This document shows, one piece after another, positions 7,882-44,371 of a stretch of DNA of 64,000 nt (the stretch's first letter is position 1; each line of letters starts with the position of its first letter). The notes below the pieces were generated by a model. It was not told the origin of the DNA. It saw only the letters and a program-made list of their open reading frames with translations, and searched no databases. The stretch comes from Yinghuangia soli (GTDB lineage: Bacteria > Actinomycetota > Actinomycetes > Streptomycetales > Streptomycetaceae). The position numbers and the translations under genes were made by a program. The stretch is from NCBI RefSeq assembly GCF_021502675.1, contig NZ_JAKFHA010000023.1:62001-126000 (forward strand), given 5' to 3'.

Positions 7882-10212
7882 TCAGCATCCGTGTCGGCGC
7901 AGTTCGCGTGCGGACAGCACCGCGATGTCGTCCCCGAAGGCGGCTACGATTCGGTGGGTGGCGGTGATCGCGATATGGGTGACCGGTGCGGGCAGGTGGG
8001 TGCACGAGCGTTCATGGCCGGTCTCGAGGTCCCACGCACGGACGGTGCCGTCGTCGCTGCCGGTGAAAGCGATCGGGTGGTGTCCGTCGTCCTCGGCGAC
8101 GGCAACGCACCGAATAGGTTGCGTGTGTCCGGTGAGAGCCGGGCGGACCGGGCGTCCGGTGGACACGTCCCAAACGCGCACGCTGTGGTCCTCGCCGCCG
8201 GTGATGGCGACCAGGGCGTTGCCGAGGCGGGTGAGGGCGATGGCATTGACGAAGCCGTCGTGGCCGATCTCGGGGTGGCAGACCGGTTCGCCGTCGCCGA
8301 GCCACCAGACACGTACTTCGGGGGTGAAGCCCGAGCCTGCGGTGATTGCCACGGCCCGGCCTTGGAGGAGGCCGACGGCTGCCGCGGTGACGATGCCGTC
8401 GCCGCGGCCGGCGAGCGCGGTGAGCAGAGTTCCGTCATCCGCGTACCACGCTCGTGCCTCGTTGTCAGGACCGCCGGTGACGATGACAGGTCGGTGGTCG
8501 TGCGTGCCGGTGGCGAGCGCGCACACGTTGCCCTTGTGGTCCTGGGAATGGTGGCGGGTCCTGAAGGTGGTGCCCACGTCCTCGGCCTCCGGCAGGCGCA
8601 ACAGACGCGGCCCGTCCCACCAATTGACGACCGCGACGGGCTCTGTGCCCACATGGGTCAGTGCGAGGCGGCGCAGTCCCTCGTCCGTTGCAGCAACAGG
8701 TGCGGCCGGGGAGCCGTCCGCGAGGTCGGTGACGCGGAGGAAGCTCTCGCCGCGGGTGGGGTGTTCCTCGTCGGCGTTTTTGGTGTGCGTAGTGACGATG
8801 GCCTCGCGGCCGCGTAGCTTGGCGACGGCAAGCCCGGTCACGGTGCCGGGCGTCGGCGGCATATGCGCGGGCGGCATGGCATCGCATGCGGCAGCGAGGT
8901 CCCAGGCATGGACGGTGGACGAGCCGTACCCGCCGACCACGGCGACCGGGTGGCCGTCCGCGTCCGCAACGGACACTTTCACGGGCGTGCCGTCGTAGGA
9001 AGGAAGCGGTGTGCACAGCTCGCGCCCGCTGGCCGGATCGACCACGTGTACGCGGCCTTTGCGGTCCGCGGCGACGAGGACCGGACGCCCATGGAGGTCC
9101 GCAACGGCGAGTGCCTCGCCGAGGGAGCCGGGACGGGTGTCCGGGAGGAGTTCGGCGAGGATTTCGCCGGACAGGTCTCGGAGCTGGATCGGGCCGTCCG
9201 CGGTCCACGTCGCCAGGACGGTCCGCCCTTCGAGGGCGAGGACGGCCAGCCCCGAGATACGGCGTTCGGGAAGCGTGATCGGTGGCGCGACCTCTTTCCG
9301 GTCCCGCAGATCCCAAGTCCGGACGACCCCGTGCGTGTCGCCCGTGATCGCGACGATGCGCCCGCTCAAGAGGGTGATGGCGGCCGCTTCGATTGCCTGC
9401 CCGGTGTGCCCCTCGAAAGGTTCTCCCCAGGGGAGTTCTTCGCTCAAGTCCCAGACGCGGACGGATGATCCGTCACCGGCGAGCGCGACCGAGCGTCCGT
9501 CGACGGTCGCGGTCGCCAGAGCCCCGCTGGTACTGGCGTACGTGATGAACGGCGTCCCCAGCCGGACACCGGACGCGGCGTCCATGGTGTACACGCTTGC
9601 TCGTGTGATGCCTTCGACGGCTGTGTAGCCGGTGACGGCCAGTACTCCGCGTCCGCCGACTGTGACCGGTCCGAGCGCGGCGACACCGCCGTCCAGACGC
9701 AGGCGCGCAATGGTTGCCCCGGTTGCCAGGTCCCAGACTCGGCCCTCGTCCCCGTACGCTGTGGCGGCCGCGACCGGGCGACCGTTCAGCACGCCGGCGG
9801 TCACTGTGCGAACACCTTGGATGTTCCGGTCGTCGGAATCAACGTCACCCGACCAAAGCAGTGCGCCGTGCAGCGCCGAGCCGGTTGCCCAGTCGACTCG
9901 ATAGGCCCCCGATGCACCATGCGCGACCGTCACTTCGGCCAGCCGTCGACTCAGGTCGGTGGCACCCCAGCGCGCGGCGTCCACGGCCAGAATGTCCCGG
10001 CGGGCTGCCGGGGGCGCGTGCCGGTGCCGCCCGACCGACGTGCGGTAGACCTGCGCAGCTGTCACGGCGGTGGCGCTGCGGGCACGCCTGGCCCACGCCA
10101 ACACGTCGGCAGGCTCGGAGTGGACCAAGAATGCTGCGTTGTCCAGCAGTTCGTCGTCGGACCCGCCGAGTGTGCCGGTATCGGGGTTCGTCTGCTGATC
10201 ACGGGAGGACAT
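7882..10212 (-). CDS. WD40 beta-propeller protein resembling the C-terminal half of a STAND protein
   Basis: 776 residues. The first 130 (LLDNAAFLVHSEPADVLAWA, then AAQVYRTSVGRHRHAPPAAR) resemble the helical linker that, in large actinobacterial caspase- or NTPase-WD40 proteins, sits just before the propeller. The remainder is a long series of WD-type blades with spaced RVWDL, RTWDL, HAWDL, RVWDV and RAWDL ends, enough for two propellers. There is no effector or NTPase domain, and none lies upstream in frame. The ATG has no ribosome site. A TAGCCT hexamer (TANNNT type) lies about 8 bases ahead, suggesting a leaderless transcript. It is likely a protein-interaction scaffold or the remnant of a larger sensor. 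Confidence 0.85.
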   Translation of the reverse strand: MSSRDQQTNPDTGTLGGSDDELLDNAAFLVHSEPADVLAWARRARSATAVTAAQVYRTSVGRHRHAPPAARRDILAVDAARWGATDLSRRLAEVTVAHGASGAYRVDWATGSALHGALLWSGDVDSDDRNIQGVRTVTAGVLNGRPVAAATAYGDEGRVWDLATGATIARLRLDGGVAALGPVTVGGRGVLAVTGYTAVEGITRASVYTMDAASGVRLGTPFITYASTSGALATATVDGRSVALAGDGSSVRVWDLSEELPWGEPFEGHTGQAIEAAAITLLSGRIVAITGDTHGVVRTWDLRDRKEVAPPITLPERRISGLAVLALEGRTVLATWTADGPIQLRDLSGEILAELLPDTRPGSLGEALAVADLHGRPVLVAADRKGRVHVVDPASGRELCTPLPSYDGTPVKVSVADADGHPVAVVGGYGSSTVHAWDLAAACDAMPPAHMPPTPGTVTGLAVAKLRGREAIVTTHTKNADEEHPTRGESFLRVTDLADGSPAAPVAATDEGLRRLALTHVGTEPVAVVNWWDGPRLLRLPEAEDVGTTFRTRHHSQDHKGNVCALATGTHDHRPVIVTGGPDNEARAWYADDGTLLTALAGRGDGIVTAAAVGLLQGRAVAITAGSGFTPEVRVWWLGDGEPVCHPEIGHDGFVNAIALTRLGNALVAITGGEDHSVRVWDVSTGRPVRPALTGHTQPIRCVAVAEDDGHHPIAFTGSDDGTVRAWDLETGHERSCTHLPAPVTHIAITATHRIVAAFGDDIAVLSARELRRHGC

Positions 10213-10403: not shown

Positions 10404-11867
10404 TCACTTCGTGGCGCGGCGGTAGGTGAGGGTTCTCAGGGGCCAGTTGGTGGTCACCTGGCCGGTGGGGGTGCGGTACCAGCTGGTGCAGCCGGCGGTG
10501 AAGGCTGAGGTGGCGAGGGCGGCCTGGAGGCGTTCTTGGTGGGCGTCGTGGGCGGGCCGGCTGGGCTCGTGGACCTTGTCGGCCTTGATGTGGCGGAGGA
10601 TGTGGGCCGCCTGGGACTCGATCATGTAGATGATCGAGTTGTGGCCGAGGTTCGTGCCGGGGCCGTACAGCATGTACAGGTTGGGGAAGTCCGGGACCGT
10701 GATGCCCAGGTAGGCGGTGGCGCCGTCCTTCCAGGCGTCGTGGAGGTTGGCGCCGGCCCGGCCGGTGATGGTCATCGGCTTGAGGAACTCGGTGGCCAGG
10801 AAGCCCGTGCCGTAGATGACGGTGTCGACGGGGTGGTGGGTGCCGTCGGCGGTGTCGATGCCGGTCTTGATGATGCGGGCGACTGGGGACGTCACTAGTT
10901 GGACGTTGTCTCGGGCGAGGGTGGGGTACCAGTCGTCGGAGATCAGGATGCGTTTGCAGCCGATGGGGAAGTCGGGCTTGAGCTGGGCGCGGAGCCTGGG
11001 GTCTTGGATTTGGGTCTCGAGGTGCTTGCGGGAGGCCCATTCGGCGAGGCCGGCGAGCTTGCCGCCGCGGATGGCCCAGTAGACGACGGTCTCCCCACGG
11101 AGGTAAGTCAGGAGGCGCAGGAGTAGGCGTACGGGGGCTACTCGGTCTCGGAGGGTGAGAGCGAGGCGGCCGAACTCGGCGTCCGGCTTCGGGATCACCC
11201 AGTTTGCGCTGCGTTGGAAGACGTAGAGCTTGGCCGCGGACTTGGCTACTTCGGGGACGAATTGGACGGCGGACGGGCCGGTGCCGATGACAGCTACCCG
11301 GCGGCCGGTCAGGTCGTGGTCGTGGTTCCACTCGGCGGAGTGGAAGGACGTCCCGGTGAAGGTCCGCATGCCGGGGATGTCCGGGTAGCGGGGGCGGTTG
11401 AGCTGGCCTACGCCCGTGATCAGGTTCCGGGCGTGGACGTCCTCGCCGGTGGTGGTGCGGAGATGCCAGATGGAGGTCTCGTCGTTCCAGTGGGCGGCGG
11501 TGACCTCGGTGTCGAAGCGGATGTGCGGGGTGATGTTGTACTGGTCGGCGGTGCGCCGGAGGTACGCCAGGATCTCGTGCTGGAGGGGGAACTTCCGGCT
11601 CCACCTGCCGTGTTGGGCAAAGGAATAGCTGTAGAGGATCGAGGGGACGTCGCAGCCGGCGCCGGGGTAGGTGTTGTCGCGCCAGACGCCGCCGAGGGTC
11701 GAGGACTTCTCGTAGACGGTGAAGTCGGTGATCCCGGACTGCCGGAGACGGATGGCCATGCACAGGCCCGCGAAGCCGGCGCCGATGATGGCCGCGCGTT
11801 GGACGGGCGGGTGCCCGGGCGGCGCGGTGGGGTCGGCGGGGCTTGGCGTTTGGTTCGTCTCCGGCAC
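10404..11867 (-). CDS. flavin-containing / Baeyer-Villiger-type monooxygenase
   Basis: This 487-residue FAD/NADPH enzyme has two dinucleotide folds: GAGFAGL near residue 30 (FAD) and GTGPSAVQ in the middle (NADPH). Between them lies the family fingerprint FTGTSFHSAEW, close to the FxGxxxHxxxW signature of flavin and Baeyer-Villiger monooxygenases. It is expected to insert oxygen into a ketone or oxidise a soft nucleophile. The chosen GTG at 11867 follows an AAAGG site. The gene lies 62 bp downstream of the Tat-exported FAD oxidoreductase on the same strand, so the two are probably one transcript controlled by the TetR operator at 14001. Substrate is unknown. Confidence 0.9.
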   Translation of the reverse strand: MPETNQTPSPADPTAPPGHPPVQRAAIIGAGFAGLCMAIRLRQSGITDFTVYEKSSTLGGVWRDNTYPGAGCDVPSILYSYSFAQHGRWSRKFPLQHEILAYLRRTADQYNITPHIRFDTEVTAAHWNDETSIWHLRTTTGEDVHARNLITGVGQLNRPRYPDIPGMRTFTGTSFHSAEWNHDHDLTGRRVAVIGTGPSAVQFVPEVAKSAAKLYVFQRSANWVIPKPDAEFGRLALTLRDRVAPVRLLLRLLTYLRGETVVYWAIRGGKLAGLAEWASRKHLETQIQDPRLRAQLKPDFPIGCKRILISDDWYPTLARDNVQLVTSPVARIIKTGIDTADGTHHPVDTVIYGTGFLATEFLKPMTITGRAGANLHDAWKDGATAYLGITVPDFPNLYMLYGPGTNLGHNSIIYMIESQAAHILRHIKADKVHEPSRPAHDAHQERLQAALATSAFTAGCTSWYRTPTGQVTTNWPLRTLTYRRATK

Positions 11868-11929
11868 GGTCCGGTTGCCTTTCCGTCGGGGGGCGGTCCC
11901 GCGGGCCGGGTCAGGGGCCGGGCGGGACG

Positions 11930-13903
11930 TCAGGGCCAGTACGGCTTGAGCACGTCGAACGCGTTCGGCAGGCCGAGGCGGTAGCGCAGGTCGTCGGCCC
12001 GGCAGAACCCTGCGAGTGCGGGCTCCTGGTACATCTCGTGGATCGTGACGCGGGGGGCGGAGGAACCGGCGGCCGCGAGGACGCCGTTGGCCGCCTTGCG
12101 GCCGGCTTCGTTGGCACCTTCCATGGTGGCCAGGTTGATGGAGACGCGTACATAGTCCCCGGCGAGGAAGAGGTTGGGAATACGCGTCGTCGCCTCGGGG
12201 CGGTCGTCCCAGGAGCCGATCGTGTTGACGAGCAGCGGCTCGTCGTTGGCCACGGACGGGGTGCCCGATCCGGTGATGCCGGGGTCCAGGAACCACGAGT
12301 GGATGAGCGAGTCGGGGACGATCGCGGCGCCGTTGTCGAGATTGGCGCGGAGCTGGGCCAAGACCTCGTCGACGATCTGGCGCGGGGTGCATTGGCGCGC
12401 GGAGCGTCCGTAGACGATGCCGGGTGCGTCCCAGTCGGACAGGTCGAGCGACAGGCAGTCCTGCACGCTGCCGTCGCCATACGTGGCCGCGAAATCGTTG
12501 CGCCAGAACTGCCCTTGGGTCAGCCCGGTGACCGCCCACGGGGAGTCCATGAAGGCCAAGTGGCCATGTGTGATGGGGGTCTTGCGCTTGAGGTAGAGCA
12601 TCAGGCCGTTCATCCAGTCGGTCTGGAGGCGGCGCAGGCGGCCGAGCGCGGGGTCGGCGGCGACCAGGGCAGGGCTCATGAGCGGTACGGCGCGTTCGAC
12701 GGGGACGGCCAGGACGTAGTGGTCGGCGTCGATGGTCGCGGCGTTGCCGGACGGGTCGGTCATGCGCGCACCCGTGATGCGGCCGCCCGAGTAGTCGAGG
12801 CCGGTGACGGTCCAACCGACCCTGAACTCGACGCCCAGGGACGTGAGAAGGGTGTGCCAGGGGTCGATCCAGGCCTCGTTGGTCGGGCCGTTGAGGACGC
12901 GGTCCGGGGCGCCCTCGTTGCCGCGGCCGAGCATGGTCCACAGGAAGATCTCGACCATCATGGTGATGGTGCGCGTGCTGGCGACGGTCTCCTTCGCGGC
13001 CACGAGGGTGGAGGTGAAGGAGCGGACGAGGATGTTGCGGTACGCCTCCGACATCTTGTCCATCTGGAGGTACTCGGAGTACGGCATGTACTCCCACTGG
13101 TGGCGCCGCCGCAGCTCGCCGCTGGTGAAGAAGACGAGCATCTTCTCGGCCCAGAACGCGATCTCCCACCAAGGGACTTGGCCTGCGACGTTGGCCATCG
13201 TCTTGAGCGCGGCGCGGAGGGCTTCGGGGGTGATGCTGTCGATGCCGCCGTCCGGGAGGATCAGCTTGTTGTCGGGACGTCCGGCCTGGGCGAAGATCGC
13301 CTCGGGTGCGTCGACGAGGTTGTCGTGGACGCCGTTGGGGTTGCCCGGGAACGGGATGCGCCGCATGGTGTCCGGCACGTTCAGGTAGAAGCCCGGGAAG
13401 AAGCGGAAGCCGTGCTCGCCGGGGAGGTCGCGGCGGCCGCCTGATCCGGTGCCTGCGACGGGGATGCTGCGGGCCTTGCCGCCGAGCGATTTGCGTTCGT
13501 AGACGGTGACTTGGAAGCCGCGTTCGGCGAGCTCGTGGGCGACGGTGAGGCCGGCCATGCCGCCGCCGAGGACGGCGACGCGGCGTCCGGACCCCGACGC
13601 GACCAGCGGTGCGCCGAAGGCGGGGGCGGCGAGCGGGCCGCCGGCGCCGAGGGCGGTCAAGCCTGCGGCTGCGGCGCCTGCGCCTAAGGTCCCGGCGACG
13701 AACTTGCGCCGGGTGGGCGACGGTTCGGGTTGGGCAGCCGACTTGGCAACGCGCGACGACGCGGGTGCCGAGGGGGTCGGTGCCGTCGGGAGTGGTGCCG
13801 TCGGGAGTGGTGCGGGCGTCGGAGACTTGAGGGATGGGGTCCTGGGGGACGTGGGCCGATCCTGTGGCGCGGTGCGGGGGAGGTGCGGCTCGTACGTTGG
13901 CAC
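11930..13903 (-). CDS. Tat-exported FAD-dependent oxidoreductase (phytoene desaturase / HpnE-like fold)
   Basis: 657 residues from a GTG with a near-perfect AGGAGG site. A Pro/Thr-rich leader of about 60 residues precedes a twin-arginine signal (SPTRRKFVAG, RR at 65-66, then an Ala/Gly-rich hydrophobic core), so the enzyme is probably exported folded with FAD. The catalytic part starts with VLGGGMAGLTVAHELAERGF and the KSLGGKARS motif, as in amine-oxidase-like dehydrogenases of carotenoid and hydroxysqualene metabolism. The C-terminal FAD motif is LFLAGDYV. It heads a two-gene unit with the monooxygenase. Its promoter carries a palindrome shared with the tetR gene. Export of such an enzyme is unusual; the substrate may be a membrane lipid. 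Confidence 0.85.
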   Translation of the reverse strand: MPTYEPHLPRTAPQDRPTSPRTPSLKSPTPAPLPTAPLPTAPTPSAPASSRVAKSAAQPEPSPTRRKFVAGTLGAGAAAAGLTALGAGGPLAAPAFGAPLVASGSGRRVAVLGGGMAGLTVAHELAERGFQVTVYERKSLGGKARSIPVAGTGSGGRRDLPGEHGFRFFPGFYLNVPDTMRRIPFPGNPNGVHDNLVDAPEAIFAQAGRPDNKLILPDGGIDSITPEALRAALKTMANVAGQVPWWEIAFWAEKMLVFFTSGELRRRHQWEYMPYSEYLQMDKMSEAYRNILVRSFTSTLVAAKETVASTRTITMMVEIFLWTMLGRGNEGAPDRVLNGPTNEAWIDPWHTLLTSLGVEFRVGWTVTGLDYSGGRITGARMTDPSGNAATIDADHYVLAVPVERAVPLMSPALVAADPALGRLRRLQTDWMNGLMLYLKRKTPITHGHLAFMDSPWAVTGLTQGQFWRNDFAATYGDGSVQDCLSLDLSDWDAPGIVYGRSARQCTPRQIVDEVLAQLRANLDNGAAIVPDSLIHSWFLDPGITGSGTPSVANDEPLLVNTIGSWDDRPEATTRIPNLFLAGDYVRVSINLATMEGANEAGRKAANGVLAAAGSSAPRVTIHEMYQEPALAGFCRADDLRYRLGLPNAFDVLKPYWP

Positions 13904-14000
13904 GGGTCCTCCTACACGGGGTCCTCGTCGAGCGGGGGTCTCTCCTTCGGAGTTCCGCGGGCTCGCAGGGGCGCGGTCCGCGGGGCTCGGAGTACGCGAT

Positions 14001-14020
14001 AACCGACACATGTGTCGACA
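14001..14020. promoter_or_regulatory. candidate TetR operator, site 2
   Basis: AACCGACA-CATG-TGTCGACA is a 20-bp palindrome of two 8-bp half-sites around a 4-bp spacer, with a perfect inner core CGACACATGTGTCG. It lies just downstream of the predicted start point of the oxidoreductase transcript. Its left half is identical to that of the site at 14879, upstream of tetR, with the same 8-4-8 spacing. A repressor bound here would block transcription of the oxidoreductase/monooxygenase pair. Confidence 0.7.
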
Positions 14021-14033
14021 GGATGCAGAGCCG

Positions 14034-14062
14034 ACTATCGCGCCCGTGATACAGCGGGTCAA
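14034..14062 (-). promoter_or_regulatory. predicted housekeeping promoter of the FAD oxidoreductase
   Basis: On the minus strand a -35 box TTGACC (14062-14057) is separated by 17 bp from a -10 box GATAGT (14039-14034). This fits the major actinobacterial sigma factor and predicts transcription from about 14027, giving a leader of about 125 bases to the GTG at 13903. The candidate operator at 14001-14020 follows immediately. Confidence 0.6.
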
Positions 14063-14084
14063 GAGTTGTACCGATGCCTGTTTT

Positions 14085-14097
14085 TGACGCAGCGTCA
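14085..14097. promoter_or_regulatory. short perfect palindrome upstream of the oxidoreductase promoter
   Basis: TGACGC-A-GCGTCA is perfectly symmetrical and sits 23 bp upstream of the -35 box, between the promoter and the 3' end of tetR. It could be a second regulator's site or part of a weak terminator for tetR. A preceding T5 run lies on the plus strand only, which does not help a minus-strand terminator. Confidence 0.35.
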
Positions 14098-14122
14098 GGT
14101 CATGGGTACAGGTTGGGAACGG

Positions 14123-14815
14123 TCAGTCGCGTGGTGTGTTGAGGCGTTCGAGGCCACCCCACAGGACGTCCGCGGCCATCGTCTCCAGGGTCGCGCGCGG
14201 CACCTCGGGGTGGTGCGCCCACCACTGGGCCACCCCGTCAAGGCTGCTGATCAGCAGCTCGATCAGCACCTCGGCCTCGGGGGAGTCGGGTGCGAGGCCG
14301 GCCCGCTCGGTGTCGTGCGCCATCATCGCCATGACCGCGCGCGTACGGGTCTGCCGGATGCCCCAACGCACGGCGCTCAGCTCCGGGTCGCCTTCGTCCG
14401 TCTGGTCGAAGAGCAGGCGGCGCGCGACCGGGTTGGCCTCGGCAAAGTCGAAGTACGCAGCGACAGTTGCACGCATGCGGGTATGGCGGCCGCCGCGTCC
14501 GGTGATGGCTGCGCCCATGTGCGCGACCAGGGCGGCGTTCTGCGCGCCGAGGATGGTCAGGAACAGCACGCGCTTGGTCGCGAAGTGCTCGTACAGCACG
14601 CTACGGGTGACCCCCGCGGCCTCGGCTATCTCGCCCATCGAGGCGGCCCCGTAGCCGCGCGAGCCGAACACCGCGAGCGCGGCGTCCTCGATGCGGCGGC
14701 GCCGTGCGGGGCCCGTCATGCGGCGGCGAACGGCCGTCGGCGGGACGGGGGGCTTCGGCGCGACCGGGCCGGGGGACGGCTCGTTCGGCTGTTCCGGGTT
14801 CGGGAGGGCGGACAT
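14123..14815 (-). CDS. TetR-family transcriptional regulator
   Basis: 230 residues. A disordered Pro-rich leader of 30 residues precedes the DNA-binding domain: RRRRIEDAALAVFGSRGYGA, then SMGEIAEAAGVTRSVLYEHFATKRVLF, the classic TetR helix-turn-helix. The C-terminal ligand and dimer domain is all-helical (LFDQTDEGDPE, LIELLISSLDGVAQWW). The ATG at 14815 follows GAGGA. It lies between the oxidoreductase pair and the flavoprotein at 15009, and both flanking control regions hold the same 20-bp palindrome. It is most simply an autoregulated repressor of the whole redox cluster. The inducing ligand is unknown, probably a hydrophobic substrate of these enzymes. Confidence 0.92.
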   Translation of the reverse strand: MSALPNPEQPNEPSPGPVAPKPPVPPTAVRRRMTGPARRRRIEDAALAVFGSRGYGAASMGEIAEAAGVTRSVLYEHFATKRVLFLTILGAQNAALVAHMGAAITGRGGRHTRMRATVAAYFDFAEANPVARRLLFDQTDEGDPELSAVRWGIRQTRTRAVMAMMAHDTERAGLAPDSPEAEVLIELLISSLDGVAQWWAHHPEVPRATLETMAADVLWGGLERLNTPRD

Positions 14816-14878
14816 GTCCTCAGCGTAGCCGGACGAGGGGTCTTGTCCGGGGCGGTACTGCAGGACTAGCGTCGCAAT

Positions 14879-14898
14879 AACCGACAGTGCTGTCGGTT
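14879..14898. promoter_or_regulatory. candidate TetR operator, site 1
   Basis: AACCGACA-GTGC-TGTCGGTT is an 8-4-8 palindrome in the 193-bp divergent region between tetR (minus) and the flavoprotein (plus). Outer symmetry extends to GTCGCAAT...TTGCGAT. It shares its left half and spacing with the palindrome at 14001. The position suits simultaneous control of tetR and the gene at 15009. Confidence 0.75.
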
Positions 14899-15008
14899 GC
14901 GATCTTTGCGCTGCGCGGCCCGTCGGCCGTGTGGTGATCTCTCGCTCCGGGTACGGCATTTGACGATCCCGCGGCACCGCGGCCGCGGCTCTGCGCAAGG
15001 GGAGTCCC

Positions 15009-16376
15009 GTGACCGAAGAGCACGTCGACGCCATCGTGGTCGGGGCGCGCTGCGCCGGATCCGCTGCGGCCATTGCGCTGGCCAGGTCGGGGCGGCGGGT
15101 GGTGGCGCTGGACTCGGCGAAGTTCCCTTCGACGACTGTCTCCACGCATTTGCTGTTCGCGGGTGGCGTCGCGGAGTTGGACCGGTTGGGCGCTCTGGAG
15201 CGGGTCGAAGAGCTGGGACCGCCGAGGCACTTCGATGCCTTCATCGGCACGCCGTTGGCCGAAGTGCGCGGTACGTACTCGCCGGTGGACGGCATCGCGT
15301 ACGGCATGTGCGTACGCCGGGCCGGGCTGGACGCGGCGCTGGTCGCGACGGCGCGGGCGGCGGGCGCGGAGGTGCGCGAGGGCGTCAAGGTCACCGAACT
15401 CGTCGAGAAGGACGGCCGGGTGGTCGGCGTCCGGGCCGGTGCGCGGGGCGGGCAGGGCGAGTACACGCTCCGGGCTCCGCTGGTGATCGGTGCGGACGGG
15501 CGCAGGTCGACGATCGCCCGGCTGGTCGGCGCGGACGTCCCGTACCTGTCGAACGCCAATGCCCGCGCGGGCTACTACGCGTACTACGAGGACCCGCGGA
15601 CGGAATGGCACGGCACGGCGGCGATGTGGCTGGGCGGACGGGAGTTGGGCACCGCGTTCCCGACGGACGGCGGCCTGGTGCTGTGCCTGCTGATGCCGCC
15701 GATGGAGCGGGTGGACGAGTTCCGGCTCGATCTGGAAGGCGAGTTCGACCGCACGGTGGCGATGCTGCCGGGGCTTGCCGAGCGTATGCAGGGGTGTACG
15801 CGGGCGACGAAGATCGTCGCGTCGGTCGACCAGCCGTCGTACTTCCGCCGGTCGTCGGGACCGGGCTGGGCGCTGGCCGGGGACGCGGGGCACTTCAAGG
15901 ACCCGGTGACCGCGCAGGGCATCCGCGATGCGCTGCGGTTCGGGCGCTTGCTGGGGGAGGCGGCGGCTCCGGTGCTGAACAACCCGGCCCGGCTCGATGC
16001 GGCCATACGGGCGTGGGAACGCCGGCGCGATGCCGAATGCCGCGAGACATACCACTGGACGAACCGCTTCGCGCGCGCCGACGAGGTCAACCCGCTGCAG
16101 GAGCAGATGCTGCGCATGCTGGCGAAGGAACCCCACGGGTCGCGGCGGCTGTTGGACGTCTATTCGCGGGCGCTGCGGCCGAGCCAGTTGCTGACGCCGG
16201 GGTTCGTTGCGGCGTGCGCTGCGGGCGCTTTCCGGCGGCGTGACACCAAGCGGCGTGAGCTGTTCCGTACGTTGCGCAGCGAGATGAGGACGGAGTTGGA
16301 GGTGCGGCGGGATTTGGCGCAGGCGGCTCGCTCCGCACGTGCGGCGCGTGCGTCAGGTGTGGAGCGCGGGCACTGA
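15009..16376 (+). CDS. FAD-dependent oxidoreductase, geranylgeranyl-reductase / group A monooxygenase type
   Basis: 455 residues with the three hallmarks of this fold: the N-terminal dinucleotide loop VVGARCAGSAAA (second glycine replaced by Ala, as in geranylgeranyl reductases), the mid-protein DG motif GADGRRST, and the GD motif GDAGHFKDPVTAQGI that binds the FAD ribityl chain. The C-terminal 100 residues are helical and basic. The GTG start follows AAGGGGAG. It is divergent from tetR across the palindrome at 14879. It may reduce isoprenoid double bonds or hydroxylate an aromatic or lipid compound. Co-control with a Baeyer-Villiger-type enzyme favours a lipid or terpenoid pathway, but this is inference. 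Confidence 0.9.
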   Translation: MTEEHVDAIVVGARCAGSAAAIALARSGRRVVALDSAKFPSTTVSTHLLFAGGVAELDRLGALERVEELGPPRHFDAFIGTPLAEVRGTYSPVDGIAYGMCVRRAGLDAALVATARAAGAEVREGVKVTELVEKDGRVVGVRAGARGGQGEYTLRAPLVIGADGRRSTIARLVGADVPYLSNANARAGYYAYYEDPRTEWHGTAAMWLGGRELGTAFPTDGGLVLCLLMPPMERVDEFRLDLEGEFDRTVAMLPGLAERMQGCTRATKIVASVDQPSYFRRSSGPGWALAGDAGHFKDPVTAQGIRDALRFGRLLGEAAAPVLNNPARLDAAIRAWERRRDAECRETYHWTNRFARADEVNPLQEQMLRMLAKEPHGSRRLLDVYSRALRPSQLLTPGFVAACAAGAFRRRDTKRRELFRTLRSEMRTELEVRRDLAQAARSARAARASGVERGH

Positions 16377-16397: not shown

Positions 16398-18758
16398 TCA
16401 GCGGCGCAACTGCCAGAACTGGCAGGTCATATCAGCGCTTGCAGTGGCGAGCAGTCGGCTGTCCCCGCTGAAGGAGACACCTGTCACCGGGCCTTCGTGG
16501 TCGATCTGGAGCAGCTTCTTTCCGTTCCGGACATTCCAGATGTACGCATGGTTGCCGAGGGTGCCCGTCGCCAGGTAGCGGCCGTCGGGCGACAGGGCGA
16601 CCCGGCTGACGTAGGCGGTGTGCGGGAAGGTCTTCACGATATGTGCCGTCTGGGCGTCCCATAGGCGCGCGTTGCCGTCGCCGCAGGTGACGAACTGCCG
16701 GCCGTCCTGGGCGAAGGCGACCGAGTGGACATTGCTGCCCCACTCGCCGTGCCTGACCTGGAGGGTTCCTTTGCCGGAGAGTACGTCGTAGATACGGGCC
16801 CATTTGGTCACGTCGCCGACGAGTATGCGTGTGCCGTCCGGGGCGAAGGCGACGGAGTTGACGGCCTTCAGGAGCAGGTTCGGACTGGTGATCTTCCGGA
16901 TGGCCTCACCGTTCGGGACCTTGCAGACCAACGTCGAGCCGTCCGCCGCGCCGCCGGCCACCAGGCGTCCGTCCGGGCTGAACGCGACCGCGCAGACGGT
17001 CGCGGAATGGCGGGCGCGCCAGATCTCGTCGCCGGTCGTCTCCCACACGCGGATGAAATGGTCGCTGCCTGCGGTGGCGAACAAGCGGCCGTCCGGGCTG
17101 AAAGCGATCTGGTAGATGCGGCATCTCGGATTGGCCGGGATGCTGCGGACCAGCTGGCCCTGCGGGTTGATGATCATCGCGGCATTGTCGGCGAAGGCCA
17201 GTGCCAGCAAATCGCCTTGCGGGTTCAGCGCGGCGAACTGGATCTTGTGCGGGAGGGTGTGCTGCGCGATGCGCTCCGCGGTGAAGCGGGCGGGCGAGGA
17301 CTTCGCGCGCTTGGGCGGGGGTTGCGGCGGGCGCGGGGGCAGAGTCGGCGGGTCGGCGGCTCGTCGCGGAGATCCGAGAGCGTCGGGGGACGCGGGAACC
17401 GCTACGGCCTCGCTCTTTGGGAAGGCCTCGGCTTCGACGTCTCGCGCCACGGTTTCTGCCGGAACCGCGGTGATCGGGGCGGACCCGGGTGGGGTCATTT
17501 CGGCGGCGGAGGACTCGGAGGTCTCGGAGTTCTCCTTCGGACTGGCCTCTGTCAGGAACGCCGATGCTTCCACCGCGGACACGGCGATGTTCTGTACGGG
17601 GACCACTTGTGTCGGAGCCTCAGTGAGGTTGAACAGCACGCCGTCCAACGACCGCATATGCAGGACCGGCGTCCCCCATTCGAGGCTGTGCCGCTGAGCG
17701 ATCCACATCGCCTGCCGGGCCTCCATGACCGCGACGTCGATGGGCAGTTGCCGGGCGAGGCCTTCGTAGAACGTGCGGGCGCACTCCAGGGCCGACGCGT
17801 CGGTGATCGGGTACCGCATCGCCAGTACCGCCGGCATGCCCTTGCGCATCAGAGCCCCGGCGACGCTCGAGAACGGGTCGACGGTGCCCGACCGCGCCGT
17901 CTCGCACGCGTTGAGGACCGCCAGGCGCAGCGACGGGTGCCCGGCGAGCAGGACGGCCAGCTGCGTGGCGCCGAGGTAGTGCGTACCGCCGTGTTCGCCG
18001 GCCAGGGCGAGGGTGCCCTCCTGGGCGCGGCTGTCGAAAGCGCCGTGCCCGATGAAGTGCAGGACGTGCCAAGGCCCGCCCGAGCCTGATCGGCCCCCTG
18101 CCTCCGTACCCCGGGCGTCGCGGCGTACCGCATCGCGCAGGGCGCGCCACGTCTGCCCGGCCACCCACCCCAGCTCGACGCGGCCTTCGTCGACAAGATC
18201 GGCCAGCGCTTCTTGCAGCCGTTCCGCTTCGTGCTGGGTGTCCAGCGGCACCAGGTCGTCCGGACGCGCGATCATGCACAGGATCCGCAAGGGTGCGCCG
18301 ACCCGCAGGGGAGCCACCGGACGGGCGACTTGCGGGTACCTGACCAGCGGGATCTCGTGGCCGAGGTAGTCGCCTTCGTCCGGGTCGTACATGAACTCCC
18401 ACGGGAGTACGGCCAGTTCCGGGGCGTTGACACGCAGGATCAGCCGTACGTTAGTGCCGCGCTCCGCGGCGCGGTGCCGGGCGGCGCGCAGTTGTCCGGC
18501 GCCGGCGCGGACCAGGAGGGCTTCGAAGAGCAACTGCCCGAGTTCACGGACGGGGCCTTCGTCGCCGACCACGGCCCGGCGTACCTGCGCGGTCGACGCG
18601 AGCACCGCATCGGGCACCCGGGCGGCCAGGGCCGCGAGGACGCTCGGCGGCGGGAGCTGCAGCACCCCGGATGTCTCGCCACCGGTCGAGTCCCGGAACA
18701 GCACGGCGTAGGTCTCCGGCCCGCCCGGAGCCACTTCGACCTGCAGGTCGACGTCCAC
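16398..18758 (-). CDS. CHAT-domain caspase-like protease fused to a WD40 propeller
   Basis: 786 residues from a GTG at 18758 (GGGGGG site); starts upstream in frame to 18920 are possible. Residues 100-420 form a CHAT domain with the catalytic pair: His238 in LHFIGHGAFD and Cys285 in LNACETARSG, plus the downstream GMPAVLAMRYPITDASA block. Residues 420-510 are a low-complexity Ser/Glu/Pro linker. From about 515 a single seven-bladed WD40 propeller follows (AFSPDGRLFATAGSDHFIRVWE, then VALSPDGRYLATG). CHAT proteases act in death-like and phage-defence pathways. The propeller probably senses or recruits the target. No NTPase is fused. It is convergent with the flavoprotein and divergent from the 151-aa gene. 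Confidence 0.9.
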   Translation of the reverse strand: MDVDLQVEVAPGGPETYAVLFRDSTGGETSGVLQLPPPSVLAALAARVPDAVLASTAQVRRAVVGDEGPVRELGQLLFEALLVRAGAGQLRAARHRAAERGTNVRLILRVNAPELAVLPWEFMYDPDEGDYLGHEIPLVRYPQVARPVAPLRVGAPLRILCMIARPDDLVPLDTQHEAERLQEALADLVDEGRVELGWVAGQTWRALRDAVRRDARGTEAGGRSGSGGPWHVLHFIGHGAFDSRAQEGTLALAGEHGGTHYLGATQLAVLLAGHPSLRLAVLNACETARSGTVDPFSSVAGALMRKGMPAVLAMRYPITDASALECARTFYEGLARQLPIDVAVMEARQAMWIAQRHSLEWGTPVLHMRSLDGVLFNLTEAPTQVVPVQNIAVSAVEASAFLTEASPKENSETSESSAAEMTPPGSAPITAVPAETVARDVEAEAFPKSEAVAVPASPDALGSPRRAADPPTLPPRPPQPPPKRAKSSPARFTAERIAQHTLPHKIQFAALNPQGDLLALAFADNAAMIINPQGQLVRSIPANPRCRIYQIAFSPDGRLFATAGSDHFIRVWETTGDEIWRARHSATVCAVAFSPDGRLVAGGAADGSTLVCKVPNGEAIRKITSPNLLLKAVNSVAFAPDGTRILVGDVTKWARIYDVLSGKGTLQVRHGEWGSNVHSVAFAQDGRQFVTCGDGNARLWDAQTAHIVKTFPHTAYVSRVALSPDGRYLATGTLGNHAYIWNVRNGKKLLQIDHEGPVTGVSFSGDSRLLATASADMTCQFWQLRR

Positions 18759-32058: not shown

Positions 32059-32463
32059 TCAGGTTGCCAAGCGGTCCAGGTGGGCCAGGCCGGCGGTGGC
32101 GGACGGGTGGTCGGGGGCGGCCTTCAGGGCGCGCTGCCAGGCGGCCCGCGCCTCGGCTTCGTTGCCGAGTTGGGCGTGGACCTTGCCGAGTACGACCAGG
32201 GCGTCGACGAAGGATCCGTCGTCCGCGAGCGCGAGTTCCAGCGCCGCCACAGCCTGTTCGCCCAGACCGTGCTTGGCGAGGTCCAGGCCGAGGTTGTACG
32301 CGCGGTCCGCGCGCGAGCGCAGGAACGCCAGCGGTGCGAGGTCCTCGCGGCAGTCCGGGCACGTGAAGGTGCGGGGGTGGGGCGGCACGCGGCACACCGG
32401 GCAGGTGACGCCCGGTGCGGACCGGCGGGCGGGGGCGGCGGCCGCCGTGATCGGGGCCGTCAC
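32059..32463 (-). CDS. zinc-ribbon/TPR protein, last gene of the Hsp70 operon
   Basis: 134 residues. A CPVC...CPDC zinc ribbon (about residues 20-38) is followed by two to three TPR helix pairs (AYNLGLDLAKHGLGEQAVAA, LVVLGKVHAQLGNEAEARAA, WQRALKAAPDHPSA). The GTG start overlaps the Hsp70 stop as GTGA, so the protein is made together with the chaperone. Both its domain types also occur in its operon partners: ribbons in Hsp70 and TPRs in the 1135-aa protein. It may bridge the two. No function is established. Confidence 0.85.
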   Translation of the reverse strand: MTAPITAAAAPARRSAPGVTCPVCRVPPHPRTFTCPDCREDLAPLAFLRSRADRAYNLGLDLAKHGLGEQAVAALELALADDGSFVDALVVLGKVHAQLGNEAEARAAWQRALKAAPDHPSATAGLAHLDRLAT

Positions 32464-34979
32464 TTGAGGCGGTCCGTGGGCTTGGCCGGACCCTGCGGCC
32501 CGATACGCCGGTCGCCGAGTTCCTCCGCGGCGGCCGTCCACAAGGGCTGCACCTGGTCGAGGTAGCGCTCCAGGGCCACCCGGTCGTTGCGGTCCGCGGC
32601 GTCGTCCAGGTTGCCGGTCAGTTCGGCGATCTGGTGGGACAGCCGTGGCGAAACGGAGCCCTGAGCCGCGACGGTGCGCATCTCCATGATCATCGCGACG
32701 ATGGGCGGCAGGCCGTCGATGGTCGACTGCACCTGCTCGGCGATGGCCAGGCCCGCCACCCAGTCGGCCTGCTCGCGCGCCCTTTCCAGCTGGTCGCCGA
32801 GCAGTTCGAGTCGGGACTGCTGCTCGGCGGTCAGGTACTTCCCGGTCCAGTGCAGGATCATCGCGAGCCGCGCCGCCGCGTAGCGGATCTCGGTGGCGAA
32901 GCGCAGCTGCTCGCGGATCCGCTTGATCAGCGGCTCGATCGGCTCGCTCCCCGGCCCCTCCAGCAGGATGTGCTCCAACTGCGCGAGCGAAGAGCGGAGT
33001 TCGTCGCGCTCGCGGTCGGTGAGCTCCTGTTCGAGGGTGTCCAGGAAGCGCACGAGGTCCTCGCGGGCCGCCGACACGACCTCCTTCTTCTGCGGGTCCA
33101 GCCGCCCGAAGCGCTGCAGCTGGACCACGTGCGGCTCGGCGCCCGGGGTGCGGACCAGCACCGAGACGGTGATGGTCCGGTCGGACGACAGCCCGAACGA
33201 GATGGTCAGCGGCGTGCCGTCCGGGAGGTCGGGCGGCAGTTGGACGTTGACGTGCCCGCACAGCTCGTTGCGCTCCGCGATGTTGTGGGAGCCCTCGTAC
33301 ACGGACACCTCGAGCCGCGTCGCACCCGCGCCCGAGGTGTGGAAGTCCCGCGAAACCGGGGACGTCGTCGGGTAGTTGGTCCCCTTGGGGATCACCACGC
33401 TCATCCGCCCGTCGTCGAGTTCGACGCCGAGGTCCTTCGGGGTGATGTCCTGCGGATCGGTGATCGGCATCGGCTGCTCGCACGAGACGCAGTCCAGGAC
33501 GCCCGGCGGGTTGACGCGCCCGCAGGCCGGGCAGCGCAGGCCCTCGCTGCGCGCCGGCCCCTCACCGCACACCGAACACGACTTGCTCTCCGGGGCGTTC
33601 GCTTTGCCGCACTGGTCGCACGTCCACAGCTTGGCGACGCTCACGGTCGGCGCGCTGTGCACCGGAGCGCCCGCGCCCGTACCCGCGCCGCCGAGCGCAG
33701 TGCCGCATTTGCCGCACGACGCCGCATCGACGTCCACCGGCATGTGGCAGGTCGCGCAGTCCGTCTTCGGCGCCCCGACCAGCGATCCGGCGCACGACGA
33801 ACAGAACTCCTCGGCAAGGTCGTTCACCGCGGCGCAGGCCGGGCACTCGATCTCCGCGGACAGCGCCGACTGGACCGCCGCACCGACCGCCACGCACTGC
33901 ATCGGATTGACGTCCTTGCGGATCCGCTCGGCGCCGAACACCTCCGCGAGCCGCTGCTCGACCAGCGGGATGGACGTGGAGCCGCCGACCAGCAGCACCT
34001 GGTCGACCGTGTCGACGTCCAGGTGGGCCTCGGCGAGCGCCTTCCGCACCAGCGTGATGGTGCGGTCCACCGCACCCGAGACCAGCTTCTCGAACTGCTC
34101 GCGCGTCACCTCGGTGTCCAGCGTGACGGCCTGCCGCCCCAGCGCGGGCAGGACCACCTCGGTGGCCAGCTGGTCGGACAGCGCGACCTTCGCCTCCTCC
34201 GCGGCGGTGCGCAGCCGCGTGGTGGCCACCAGGTCGCCGTCCAGCGCGACGCCGTGCTCCCGCTCGGCCTCCGCGGCGAGCCGGTGCCGCAGCAGGTCGT
34301 CGAAGTCGTCGCCGCCGAGCAGGTTGTCGCCCTCGATGCCGATCACGTCGATCATGCCCTGCACGAGCAGCAGCACCGAGATGTCGAACGTGCCGCCGCC
34401 CAGGTCGTAGACCAGGATCGTGCGCGGCTCCTGCCCCGGGTCGGCGGCCAGCCCGAACGCGAGCGCTGCCGCGGTCGGCTCGTTGATGATCTTCAGCACG
34501 TGGAACCCGGCCAGCCGCCCGGCCTCCCGGGTGGCCGCGACCTGCCGCTCGCCGAAGTACGCGGGCACCGTGATGACGGCCCGGTTGAACTGCTCGTGGG
34601 TGCGCTGCTCGGCGTCCAGCTTGAGGCGCCGCAGGATCATCGCGGATATCTCGATGGGCGTGTAGTCGTACGCCCCGAGCCGCACGTGCACGTCCCCGTC
34701 CGCGCCTCGCCCGATCCGGTACGCCACCCGGTCGAGCGCCGCGGCCACCTCCGGGTCGTCGAACCGGCGGCCCATGAACCGCTTCACGGATGTGACCGCG
34801 TCGGTGCCGCGGCCGCGCGCCGGGGCGCCGACCAGCAACTCGTCGCGGCGGCCGAGGGCCACGACGGACGGCGTGGAGTCGCGGTTCTGGCGGTTCAGCA
34901 GGATCTTCGGTTCACCGCGCGACAGGTACGCCATCACCGAGTTCGTCGTGCCGAGGTCGATGCCGAGAGTGCGCTGCAC
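32460..34979 (-). CDS. Hsp70-family chaperone with four inserted zinc ribbons
   Basis: 839 residues. ATPase domain 1-372 has GIDLGTTNS, NEPTAAALAFG, YDLGGGTFDIS and LVGGSTSIPLVE intact. The substrate-binding beta domain (about 510-615) begins ITPKDLGVELDDGRMSVVIP, with a helical region to the end. Between them, residues 379-500 hold eight CxxC pairs (379/382, 393/396, 408/411, 422/425, 454/457, 468/471, 483/486, 497/500), that is four zinc ribbons replacing the interdomain linker. Housekeeping DnaK is about 620 residues and has none. The C-terminus lacks the usual acidic EEVD/EEKD-like tail. It lies between grpE (3-bp gap) and a ribbon/TPR gene (4-bp overlap). Confidence 0.93.
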   Translation of the reverse strand: MQRTLGIDLGTTNSVMAYLSRGEPKILLNRQNRDSTPSVVALGRRDELLVGAPARGRGTDAVTSVKRFMGRRFDDPEVAAALDRVAYRIGRGADGDVHVRLGAYDYTPIEISAMILRRLKLDAEQRTHEQFNRAVITVPAYFGERQVAATREAGRLAGFHVLKIINEPTAAALAFGLAADPGQEPRTILVYDLGGGTFDISVLLLVQGMIDVIGIEGDNLLGGDDFDDLLRHRLAAEAEREHGVALDGDLVATTRLRTAAEEAKVALSDQLATEVVLPALGRQAVTLDTEVTREQFEKLVSGAVDRTITLVRKALAEAHLDVDTVDQVLLVGGSTSIPLVEQRLAEVFGAERIRKDVNPMQCVAVGAAVQSALSAEIECPACAAVNDLAEEFCSSCAGSLVGAPKTDCATCHMPVDVDAASCGKCGTALGGAGTGAGAPVHSAPTVSVAKLWTCDQCGKANAPESKSCSVCGEGPARSEGLRCPACGRVNPPGVLDCVSCEQPMPITDPQDITPKDLGVELDDGRMSVVIPKGTNYPTTSPVSRDFHTSGAGATRLEVSVYEGSHNIAERNELCGHVNVQLPPDLPDGTPLTISFGLSSDRTITVSVLVRTPGAEPHVVQLQRFGRLDPQKKEVVSAAREDLVRFLDTLEQELTDRERDELRSSLAQLEHILLEGPGSEPIEPLIKRIREQLRFATEIRYAAARLAMILHWTGKYLTAEQQSRLELLGDQLERAREQADWVAGLAIAEQVQSTIDGLPPIVAMIMEMRTVAAQGSVSPRLSHQIAELTGNLDDAADRNDRVALERYLDQVQPLWTAAAEELGDRRIGPQGPAKPTDRLK

Positions 34980-34982
34980 AGG

Positions 34983-35555
34983 TCATCCTTCTTCCGGAGC
35001 GTCGGCAGGGCTGCCGTCGGGGATTTCGGCGGAGAGGTCGGTGGGGAGGTCGGTTTCGAGCGGCTGCCGGCTCACCACGACCTTGGCCGGCCGCAGGACG
35101 TCGTCGCCCAGCCAGTAGCCCGCCGCCACCACCCGGAGGATCGTGCCTTCCGGCCGCCTCGGGTCGTCCTCGGTGTCCACCACGTCGCAGCGCTCGGCAT
35201 CGGAGATCGCGCCCAGCGCCATGCGCTCGACGCCCGCCCGCCGCATCCTCTGCAGCAGCAGCCGCTGCGTGGCCTCGATGTTCTCGCGCAGCCGCTCCAG
35301 CCCGCGGGACGACCCCATCACCGCGTCGGCGGGCAGCTGCCGGGTCAGGACTTCATCGAGCGCATCGCATACGTCGAGGAGCCCGGTGACGAGTTCGCGG
35401 CGCTCGCCGGCCCGCGCGCTGCGCTCCTTGTCGAGCAGGGTCTCCACGGTCGCGCGGCGCTGCAACTGCCGGGCGTACGCGGCATACAGGTCGGTGTCGG
35501 GGACGTCCGCGCCGCCGGCCCGGGGTTCCTCGACCACCGCGAGCGGATCGGTCAC
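34983..35555 (-). CDS. GrpE-type nucleotide exchange factor
   Basis: 190 residues from a GTG with an AGGAGG site. A helical coiled-coil region (YARQLQRRATVETLLDKERS, LLDVCDALDEVLTRQ) leads to the C-terminal beta domain (GVERMALGAISDAERCDVVD, ILRVVAAGYWLGDDVLRPAK), where the last block is the GrpE signature. The order long helix then GYWLxDxVLRPAxV is diagnostic. It is separate from the housekeeping dnaK-grpE-dnaJ locus and is presumably dedicated to the neighbouring zinc-ribbon Hsp70, whose ADP it would release. Three bases separate it from the Hsp70 start. Confidence 0.92.
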   Translation of the reverse strand: MTDPLAVVEEPRAGGADVPDTDLYAAYARQLQRRATVETLLDKERSARAGERRELVTGLLDVCDALDEVLTRQLPADAVMGSSRGLERLRENIEATQRLLLQRMRRAGVERMALGAISDAERCDVVDTEDDPRRPEGTILRVVAAGYWLGDDVLRPAKVVVSRQPLETDLPTDLSAEIPDGSPADAPEEG

Positions 35556-35610
35556 GGGTGCCTCCTTGTCCACGTCCTGTGCCTCCGACTCCGCCGCGCC
35601 GTGCGCGGCC

Positions 35611-36012
35611 TCACAAGGGCGGTTCCAGATCGGGCAGCAGACCGGGGTCGGGCCCCGGGAACGCCGCGAGGCCGACCGGGGCGACGGGCAGCGGGCGGAT
35701 GTCGGCGGCGCGTTCCGCGGCCGTCGAACCGAACATGTCGCCGGTGTCCGGGACCGGCAGCAGTTCCGGGGCCAGGAAGTCGACCTCGCCCGGCGGCCCG
35801 AGCGACTCCCGTGTCTCATCGTCGAGTTCGGCGTCGAAGTAGTACAGGACGTCGTGTTCGAGCCGGTTCCGGAGCAGCTCCTGACGGGCCTGGCCCAGCT
35901 CGGTGCGGCGGTCGCGCGCGGTGCGGGCGGCCTGGACGTAGGCGGCGTACACGGCCTTGTCGTCGGCATCGGGCCCGATGCCGAGCAGGTCGTACAGGGA
36001 TTCCTCGGCCAC
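35611..36012 (-). CDS. J-domain-like protein lacking the HPD motif
   Basis: 133 residues from a GTG preceded by GGAGGA (very short spacing). The opening SLYDLLGIGPDADDKAVYAAY matches helix I and the start of helix II of J domains. LLRNRLEHDVLYYFDAELD matches the end of helix III/IV. The HPD tripeptide that triggers Hsp70 ATPase is absent; the loop reads QAARTARDRRTEL. The C-terminal half is acidic and Pro-rich (PLPVAPVGLAAFPGPDPG). It may recruit rather than stimulate the Hsp70, or be a regulatory J-like adaptor. It lies between the TPR giant (47-bp gap) and grpE (55-bp gap). Confidence 0.75.
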   Translation of the reverse strand: MAEESLYDLLGIGPDADDKAVYAAYVQAARTARDRRTELGQARQELLRNRLEHDVLYYFDAELDDETRESLGPPGEVDFLAPELLPVPDTGDMFGSTAAERAADIRPLPVAPVGLAAFPGPDPGLLPDLEPPL

Positions 36013-42653: not shown

Positions 42654-43100
42654 ATGCTCAGTGCATTCGAGGTGCTCACCATCGTGGTCGTCGGGCTGAT
42701 GGTGGGGGTGGAATGCTCCGTCGTGTTCGTCATGAAGCCGATCCTCGACGCCCTGCCCGGCGATGCCGGCCAGCTCGGCCACGCGCACGGCGGCCGGATG
42801 CTCGGCGCGGCCATGCCGGTCTGGTACATCGGCTCGCTTGCCCTCAGCGCCGTCTGGGCCGTCGCCCGATGGGACGAGCAGGGCACCGGCCTCGTCGTCA
42901 CCGCCGCCGCACTCCTGGTCCTCAGCGTGGCCATGTCGCTTCTGCTGCTCGTCCCGATCAACAACCGGAACAAGACGTGGACCCCCGAGAACCGGCCCGC
43001 GGACTGGAAGCAGCAGCTGAACCGCTGGGAACGCTGGCACTACGCCCGCATCGCCGTCATCACCGGCGCCTTCGCCCTGCTGGCGGCCGCGCTCGCCTAA
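42654..43100 (+). CDS. DUF1772-type membrane protein
   Basis: 148 residues from an ATG with AGGA 6 bases upstream. Four membrane helices (about 5-25, 48-68, 78-100 and 128-147), with PINNRNKTW and NRWERWHYAR between the third and fourth. This layout and the NxxxxxW...W...H pattern are those of DUF1772/anthrone-oxygenase-like proteins, some of which catalyse cofactor-free oxygenation of polyketides. The gene is convergent with, and overlaps by 4 bp, the styrene-monooxygenase-like gene. No aromatic polyketide genes are nearby, so the role is unassigned. Confidence 0.8.
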   Translation: MLSAFEVLTIVVVGLMVGVECSVVFVMKPILDALPGDAGQLGHAHGGRMLGAAMPVWYIGSLALSAVWAVARWDEQGTGLVVTAAALLVLSVAMSLLLLVPINNRNKTWTPENRPADWKQQLNRWERWHYARIAVITGAFALLAAALA

Positions 43101-44323: not shown

Positions 44324-44371
44324 GACGAACTCGCCTCCGTGGACTGGCAAGGATCAAGAGAACCGCAGGGG

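Follow-up and report, generated by a model that had tools for sequence, protein, structure and literature searches.

EthA is a Baeyer-Villiger enzyme encoded beside ethR. When under 200 bp separate a TetR protein's gene from a divergent one, the TetR protein is in most cases a repressor of that neighbour, according to the part of PMC3511530 drawn on here. The FasR of Mycobacterium tuberculosis is an activator, at fas-acpS, in the sections of PMC7382501 used here, and is not to be confused with a Streptomyces coelicolor protein also named FasR, which the relevant part of PMC5541348 identifies as the MabR ortholog, a different protein. Here we describe a TetR-family gene that stands among three flavoenzyme genes of Yinghuangia soli (Table 1), in a stretch of 64,000 nucleotides that was analysed whole and is called the window below.

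Table 1. Features of the tetR cassette, in positions of the window
Feature	Position	Strand	Remarks
BVMO, Baeyer-Villiger-type flavin monooxygenase	10404..11867	-	FTGTSFHSAEWN fingerprint; gene call, GTG start
AO, flavin amine-oxidase/desaturase-like enzyme	11930..13903	-	Pfam Amino_oxidase 3.1e-25
Operator 1 (putative), AACCGACA-CATG-TGTCGACA	14001..14020		between tetR stop and oxidase gene (AO); best dyad of spacer
AO-BVMO promoter (predicted), TTGACC-17-GATAGT	14034..14062	-	operator 1 begins 13 bp past -10
tetR, TetR-family regulator, 230 aa	14123..14815	-	FasR-like fold; recognition helix AGVTRSVLYEHF; Pfam TetR_N 6.5e-15
Probable flavoprotein promoter, TTGTCC-18-TAGCGT	14843..14872	+	weak consensus, 7/12; operator 2 begins 6 bp past -10
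Operator 2 (putative), AACCGACA-GTGC-TGTCGGTT	14879..14898		between divergent tetR and flavoprotein genes; best dyad of spacer
FAD-dependent monooxygenase/reductase-like flavoprotein	15009..16376	+	divergent from tetR, 193-bp spacer; Pfam FAD_binding_3 2.5e-18

Two palindromes in a flavoenzyme cassette

The preliminary description of this DNA had reported two palindromes with the same spacing and left half, one between tetR and the flavoprotein gene and the other following a good -35/-10 promoter ahead of the oxidoreductase pair, and each of these points held. The palindromes are present as claimed (AACCGACACATGTGTCGACA at 14001-14020 and AACCGACAGTGCTGTCGGTT at 14879-14898), operator 2 lies in the named spacer, and TTGACC-17-GATAGT is the sole promoter-like match in 13880-15060, against a shuffle mean of 0.1. 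The stretch common to both is longer than had been said, namely CGC[GA]ATAACCGACA-N4-TGTCG within a 23-bp repeat of 78% identity. Operator 1 is only partly palindromic, with a perfect inner 14 bp (CGACACATGTGTCG) and a degenerate outer right half. Searching the window for the 8-4-8 pattern at up to three mismatches gave two matches, both of them the operators (shuffle mean 0.12; two matches in 1 of 100 shuffles), and in an inverted-repeat scan free of motif bias each operator ranked top in its own intergenic region. We also generated Markov-2 random windows and scored them for a perfect 8-4-8 dyad accompanied, within 2 kb, by another copy of one of its halves to which the five innermost bases of the opposite half are joined at the same spacing; 11 of the 600 passed, and the real window holds two such events. 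Because that many random windows show a comparable event, the evidence of the window by itself is suggestive only. A further perfect short inverted repeat, TGACGC-A-GCGTCA at 14085-14097, lies between tetR and the AO promoter and is partly kept in Y. seranimata.

A putative palindromic operator lies inside the 193-bp spacer between tetR and its presumed target and directly past the target's promoter core, itself just a 7/12 match, as looked for in a local TetR repressor; at 193 bp the spacer is within the 200-bp limit described for such repressors (PMC3511530, in the part cited above).

The AO gene starts at a GTG 4 nt past AGGAGG, and its product carries a predicted Tat-type signal (TRRKFVAG). 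Against the NCBIfam model of the hydroxysqualene dehydroxylase HpnE it scores 94.5 bits, under the curated cut-off of 283.05. The nearest fold to the predicted AO model (mean pLDDT 74) is phytoene desaturase 5mog (19% identity), followed by oleate hydratase (15%). BVMO starts 62 bp downstream of AO, and the two are probably on one transcript. The motif FxGxxxHxxxW is the fingerprint of type I Baeyer-Villiger monooxygenases, and the BVMO gene product fits that class in its fingerprint and in its similarity to solved BVMOs: the best PDB matches are steroid monooxygenase 4ap3 (3.1e-74) and phenylacetone monooxygenase, for a query of 10404-11885, six codons longer than the called gene. A simple codon-composition caller supplied the BVMO start and the genes of the comparative loci (Y. 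seranimata, G081, G155, G289, G094 and the near-match loci).

Several other genes of the window were noted in passing. Adjoining the flavoprotein gene is one for a fusion of a CHAT domain and a WD40 propeller (16398-18758, minus strand); a 19-kb stretch of Y. seranimata (L092) has no match to it and carries different genes at that position. On the other side of the cassette another WD40-repeat protein is encoded (7882-9369, minus strand). Further away are an Hsp70-like protein with double zinc-ribbon (DZR) matches (32460-36012, minus strand), beside both a GrpE-like gene and a small gene lacking a Pfam match, and a styrene monooxygenase A-like protein with a Smoa_sbd domain (43097-44350, minus strand).

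In Y. seranimata, BVMO, AO, tetR and flavoprotein are kept together while the immediate neighbours differ, and luciferase-like and 3-hydroxyacyl-CoA dehydrogenase genes further out are common to both species. Operator 1 is identical there at 20 of 20 bases, and the stretch from operator 1 to the -35 at 95%; the parts of that spacer outside the promoter-operator block are 37% and 53% identical. For operator 2 the figure is 95%, for the stretch from the -35 to operator 2 it is 83%, and for the outer parts of the spacer 49-57%; the tetR gene itself is 81% identical. Peptide patterns of the window TetR, run over 84,980 species genomes by a method that finds close relatives only, gave 7 loci, with Y. 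seranimata the only close relative.

Frequency of the extended motif in Yinghuangia

Random occurrence throughout the genome had been named at the outset as evidence that would speak against the predicted regulon. The extended motif is not random in this sense, as its exact form is confined to the two operators: TAACCGACA-N4-TGTCGRY has two exact matches in the 9.7-Mb genome of Y. soli, both operators, and two in Y. seranimata, at the orthologous places, while TAACCGACANNNNTGTCGRY at 0 mismatches also occurs twice in each. For a third Yinghuangia genome the best ten extended-motif loci are all at 2 mismatches, and a search there for a close tetR ortholog found none (best E 1.4e-19).

Looser patterns are common. 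With up to two mismatches, ACCGACA-N4-TGTCGGT occurs at 33 places in the Y. soli genome and its reversed pattern at 7; one of the 33 is exact (operator 2), and two carry a single mismatch, inside a gene read as a glycosidase and in an operon read as infB. At three mismatches the forward matches number 104 in Y. soli, 121 in Y. seranimata and 104 in the third genome. When 21 spacings are allowed, the core CCGACA-N-TGTCGG occurs at 45 places in the Y. soli genome, 3 of them at spacing 4, which is not favoured. Since loose matches are equally frequent in the third genome and the core lacks a spacing-4 preference, we regard only near-exact sites as informative. A wide regulon in Y. soli was rejected: of 11 near-match loci examined, which are part of all near-matches (nine from Y. 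soli and two from Y. seranimata), nine fall within predicted coding sequence. The two noncoding ones are the locus read as the infB operon (L003), with one core mismatch, and one beside a gene read as radA (L004), with two.

Linkage of site, regulator and enzymes across families

The families in the comparison carry the labels f1, f19, f28, f6 and f15. Exact extended sites were found by pattern search in 7 of the 296 genomes of the class, Y. soli included, and a protein search with tetR (E at most 1e-27) found 4 of the 296: Y. soli itself, G289 (53%), G094 (51%) and G262 (37%). In G289 the motif search and the tetR search, each run over all 296 genomes, converge on one place, where the spacer separating tetR from an AO homolog holds a perfect palindrome, TTAACCGACA-CAAA-TGTCGGTTAA, and the spacer on the side of a divergent BVMO homolog holds a 2-mismatch copy. 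In G094 both a perfect 18-mer and a 2-mismatch copy are found between tetR and a divergent AO homolog. These two genomes belong to two families other than that of Yinghuangia. Within 15 kb of the TetR homolog of G262 there was no site at up to three mismatches. Exact extended sites also occur at L112-L116 (in G100, G157, G192, G204 and G104), with no strong tetR among the matches listed there. Searching plasmids with the TetR protein gave no match.

A profile of four orthologs, searched against f19, listed 47 matches from 40 of 341 genomes and 6 of 68 genera, all 47 of which were examined; together with the tetR genes of the window, Y. seranimata and G094 they form a regulog set of 50. We counted a site when ACCGACA-N4-TGTCGGT, at up to two mismatches, lay within 250 bp of tetR. 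The motif is found upstream of 41 of the 50 genes, downstream of 40 and on both sides of 40, most of these loci coming from one family and hence not being independent. Within f19 it stands on both sides of tetR in 38 of 47 cases and on neither side in 9. AO is close by in 38 of the 41 motif-bearing loci, the remainder being L174 and L140, near contig ends, and L178, where AO was not found; it is within 3.5 kb of none of the nine f19 tetR genes without the motif. Of the 41 motif-bearing loci, 21 have a BVMO homolog as the divergent gene and 14 a flavoprotein homolog; in the other 6 it is AO, or nothing was recognised. A flavoprotein homolog diverges from a tetR ortholog in 12 loci outside Yinghuangia. 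Most commonly the order is oxidase, site, tetR, site, and a divergent flavoprotein or Baeyer-Villiger-type monooxygenase. With sites beside 41 of 50 tetR genes that keep company with the same enzyme homologs, these comparisons of sequence lend strong support to the original proposal that the flavoprotein and the oxidoreductase pair form a single TetR regulon.

Over the 45 loci outside the window, 80 matches fall in 31,762 positions of tetR flanks vs. 2 in 414,778 positions elsewhere, and the reversed pattern gives 0 in both. Both of the outlying matches are at the AO and BVMO promoters of L188, where a tetR copy is 3.3 kb off. These counts bear on whether the palindromes might be mere coincidence, or a site for some other regulator. 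Such an origin draws on the 11 of 600 random windows with a comparable double event and on the indifference of the short core to spacing, but it is very hard to reconcile with the co-occurrence of the site and one tetR group over three families, given so sparse a background, and we consider it most improbable. At L188, AO and BVMO still have a pair of operator-like sites, and a tetR gene was not found in the interval.

The nine f19 genes without a site are of three kinds: tetR paralogs beyond the BVMO gene (L162, L166, L167 and L188), distant relatives (two in L169 and one in L170), and close relatives (L161 and L146) near which no gene for any of the three enzymes was found. Site-bearing genes of f19 and f28 encode proteins 48-61% identical to the window TetR, and the site-less ones 38-60%.

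The tie of the flavoprotein to the regulog is the weaker one, because in two f6 genomes of a 118-genome sample (G081 and G155) flavoprotein homologs (51% and 49%) and AO homologs adjoin a different TetR, from which they diverge. The palindrome upstream of the flavoprotein there is TCGGACA-CTA-TGTCCGA. TetR control of a similar enzyme pair may therefore have arisen repeatedly, as judged from these two related genomes. In both loci, at about 2760-3030 of L096 (G081) and about 2815-3120 of L098 (G155), this palindrome upstream of the flavoprotein-AO pair reads TCGGACACTATGTCCGA.

From a site just past the -10, a repressor can block transcription as it initiates or soon after, and activators normally bind upstream of the -35. 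We surveyed promoters by taking the best TTG-type core per 88-base stretch, and give raw counts. For sites 3' of tetR, the palindrome lies 11-18 bp past the -10 of a TTGAC- promoter of 9/12 consensus in 38 of the 39 readable loci, L178 being the sole exception (the fortieth such site, L140, is cut at a contig end and was omitted). A core facing the divergent gene, matching the consensus at 6 to 9 of 12 bases, is present in 34 of 41 loci, with the site beginning 1-14 bp past its -10. No promoter of at least 8/12 consensus for tetR itself was found in the 41 loci with an upstream site, so that it is operator position alone that points to autoregulation of tetR. The survey also weighs on the idea that TetR binds these sites yet turns the promoters on, in the manner of M. 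tuberculosis FasR at fas-acpS. FasR, the closest solved relative of the window TetR, is indeed an activator (PMC7382501, in the sections used here), but the site begins past the -10 at 38 of the 39 readable 3' sites, and we think activation improbable.

The palindromes could alternatively work as hairpins in a leader RNA and not as protein sites, an idea suggested by operator 1, which is palindromic and within a presumed leader. However, among 19 distinct 18-mers 3' of tetR, 7 have an A opposite a C at positions 3/14, and the same site is also found between divergent genes. Among 48 distinct sites, oriented so that tetR is on the plus strand, 42 have an exact right half (TGTCGGT) and 24 an exact left half, and the changes are uncompensated. 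Because the right half is so often exact and changes at symmetric positions go uncompensated, we take the palindromes as DNA sites and reject the hairpin, which has next to no likelihood.

Kinship with FasR, proposed mechanism and known systems

The window TetR combines a TetR_N helix-turn-helix with an all-helical effector domain, as is usual for the family; its AlphaFold model, of fair quality (mean pLDDT 83.9), consists of helices only, and its Foldseek matches are TetR proteins. The best PDB matches by sequence and by Foldseek alike are M. tuberculosis FasR (6o6n/6o6o/6o6p), at about 30% identity. That the window protein is FasR itself was rejected, its 99.9 bits to the NCBIfam FasR model being under the curated cut-off of 330. 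In one pairwise alignment, at that same low identity, four of six tunnel/spine residues named in the part of the FasR description at hand are identical and two conservative (L98-L96, L106-I104, F123-Y121, F138-F136, V163-V161 and L185-L187, FasR first). The recognition helices differ, TRSVLYEHF in the window TetR vs. SKPVLYQHF in FasR, and the helix of the site-bearing genes runs about [TAS]R[ST]V[LMV]Y[DE]HF (some rows being partial) vs. SKPVLYQHF in the FasR-type rows, which we defined by sharing it. In a tree, 17 FasR-type rows are split from the 50 regulog rows by a branch of SH-aLRT 99, although branches are long and the deep joins unsure. FasR activates fatty acid synthase genes, whereas the putative sites of the window TetR lie at flavoenzyme promoters.

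Our reading, to which we assign a probability of about 0.88 on sequence evidence, is that TetR is a local, ligand-released repressor that binds both operators and controls the three flavoenzymes. A TetR dimer would bind both palindromes; at operator 2 it would shut the divergent flavoprotein promoter and, by position, probably its own, and at operator 1, just past the -10, the AO-BVMO promoter. A hydrophobic ligand, probably a substrate or a signal related to the enzymes, would then release TetR, so that all three flavoenzymes are induced. Of all this, the sequences show the sites themselves, the uniqueness of the extended motif in the genome, conservation, placement next to two promoter-like sequences, and a regulator-operator linkage that extends over three families; that TetR binds, represses, controls its own gene and is released by a ligand of this kind is what we infer. 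Weighing against it are the 9 of 47 f19 matches without a site, the degeneracy of operator 1, the weak flavoprotein promoter, the tetR promoter that went unrecognised in the 41 loci, the indifference of the short core to spacing and the activator role of FasR.

Our best guess is that the ligand is a long hydrophobic molecule; the resemblance of the AO model to phytoene desaturase, its nearest fold, agrees with this but is weak evidence. We offer more tentatively, and would sooner doubt than back, a wider scenario in which a FasR-like lipid-tunnel TetR lineage was rewired, through a new helix and a repressor-type site, and now senses a long hydrophobic compound, which might be an isoprenoid or a lipid, inducing a pathway of an exported desaturase-like flavoenzyme and interchangeable flavin monooxygenases. 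The regulog may in this way show how a FasR-like sensor scaffold is reused as a repressor.

What began as a guess from two sites has become a regulog with an operator consensus, AO as core target and BVMO or flavoprotein as exchangeable partners, in three actinobacterial families. It supplies probes for EMSA, suggests how a reporter for screening ligands could be built and opens a route to the substrate of the flavoenzyme pathway. In a limited literature search by motif and gene context, neither this operator nor this set of genes was seen described; the operator, the regulog and the conserved oxidase core appear to be new, while the local TetR repressor as such is an already known kind of system.

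Among known systems, EthR/EthA of M. tuberculosis likewise places a TetR-type repressor beside a flavin monooxygenase, and EthR2 of the same species is among the top Foldseek matches of the window TetR; the divergent gene of the window, however, is a flavoprotein and not a BVMO. The EthR motif is larger and more complex, with no simple spaced palindrome in the part of PMC4482099 that describes it, whereas the window operators are spaced palindromes. SCO7222/SCO7223 of S. coelicolor resembles the window in its TetR with a divergent monooxygenase and operators in a spacer of less than 200 bp, with repression shown (PMC3511530, in the part cited), but its operator, TGGAACG-N-CGTTCCA, is unlike the regulog's ACCGACA-N4-TGTCGGT. 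Equating the window regulator with SCO7222 or EthR was rejected, as their operators, so far as described in these sources, set them apart. Classical TetR/tetA shares the divergent regulator and target and the palindromic operators (same part of PMC3511530), and differs in that the window targets are enzymes and not an efflux pump, and that another operator is found on the 3' side of the regulator gene.
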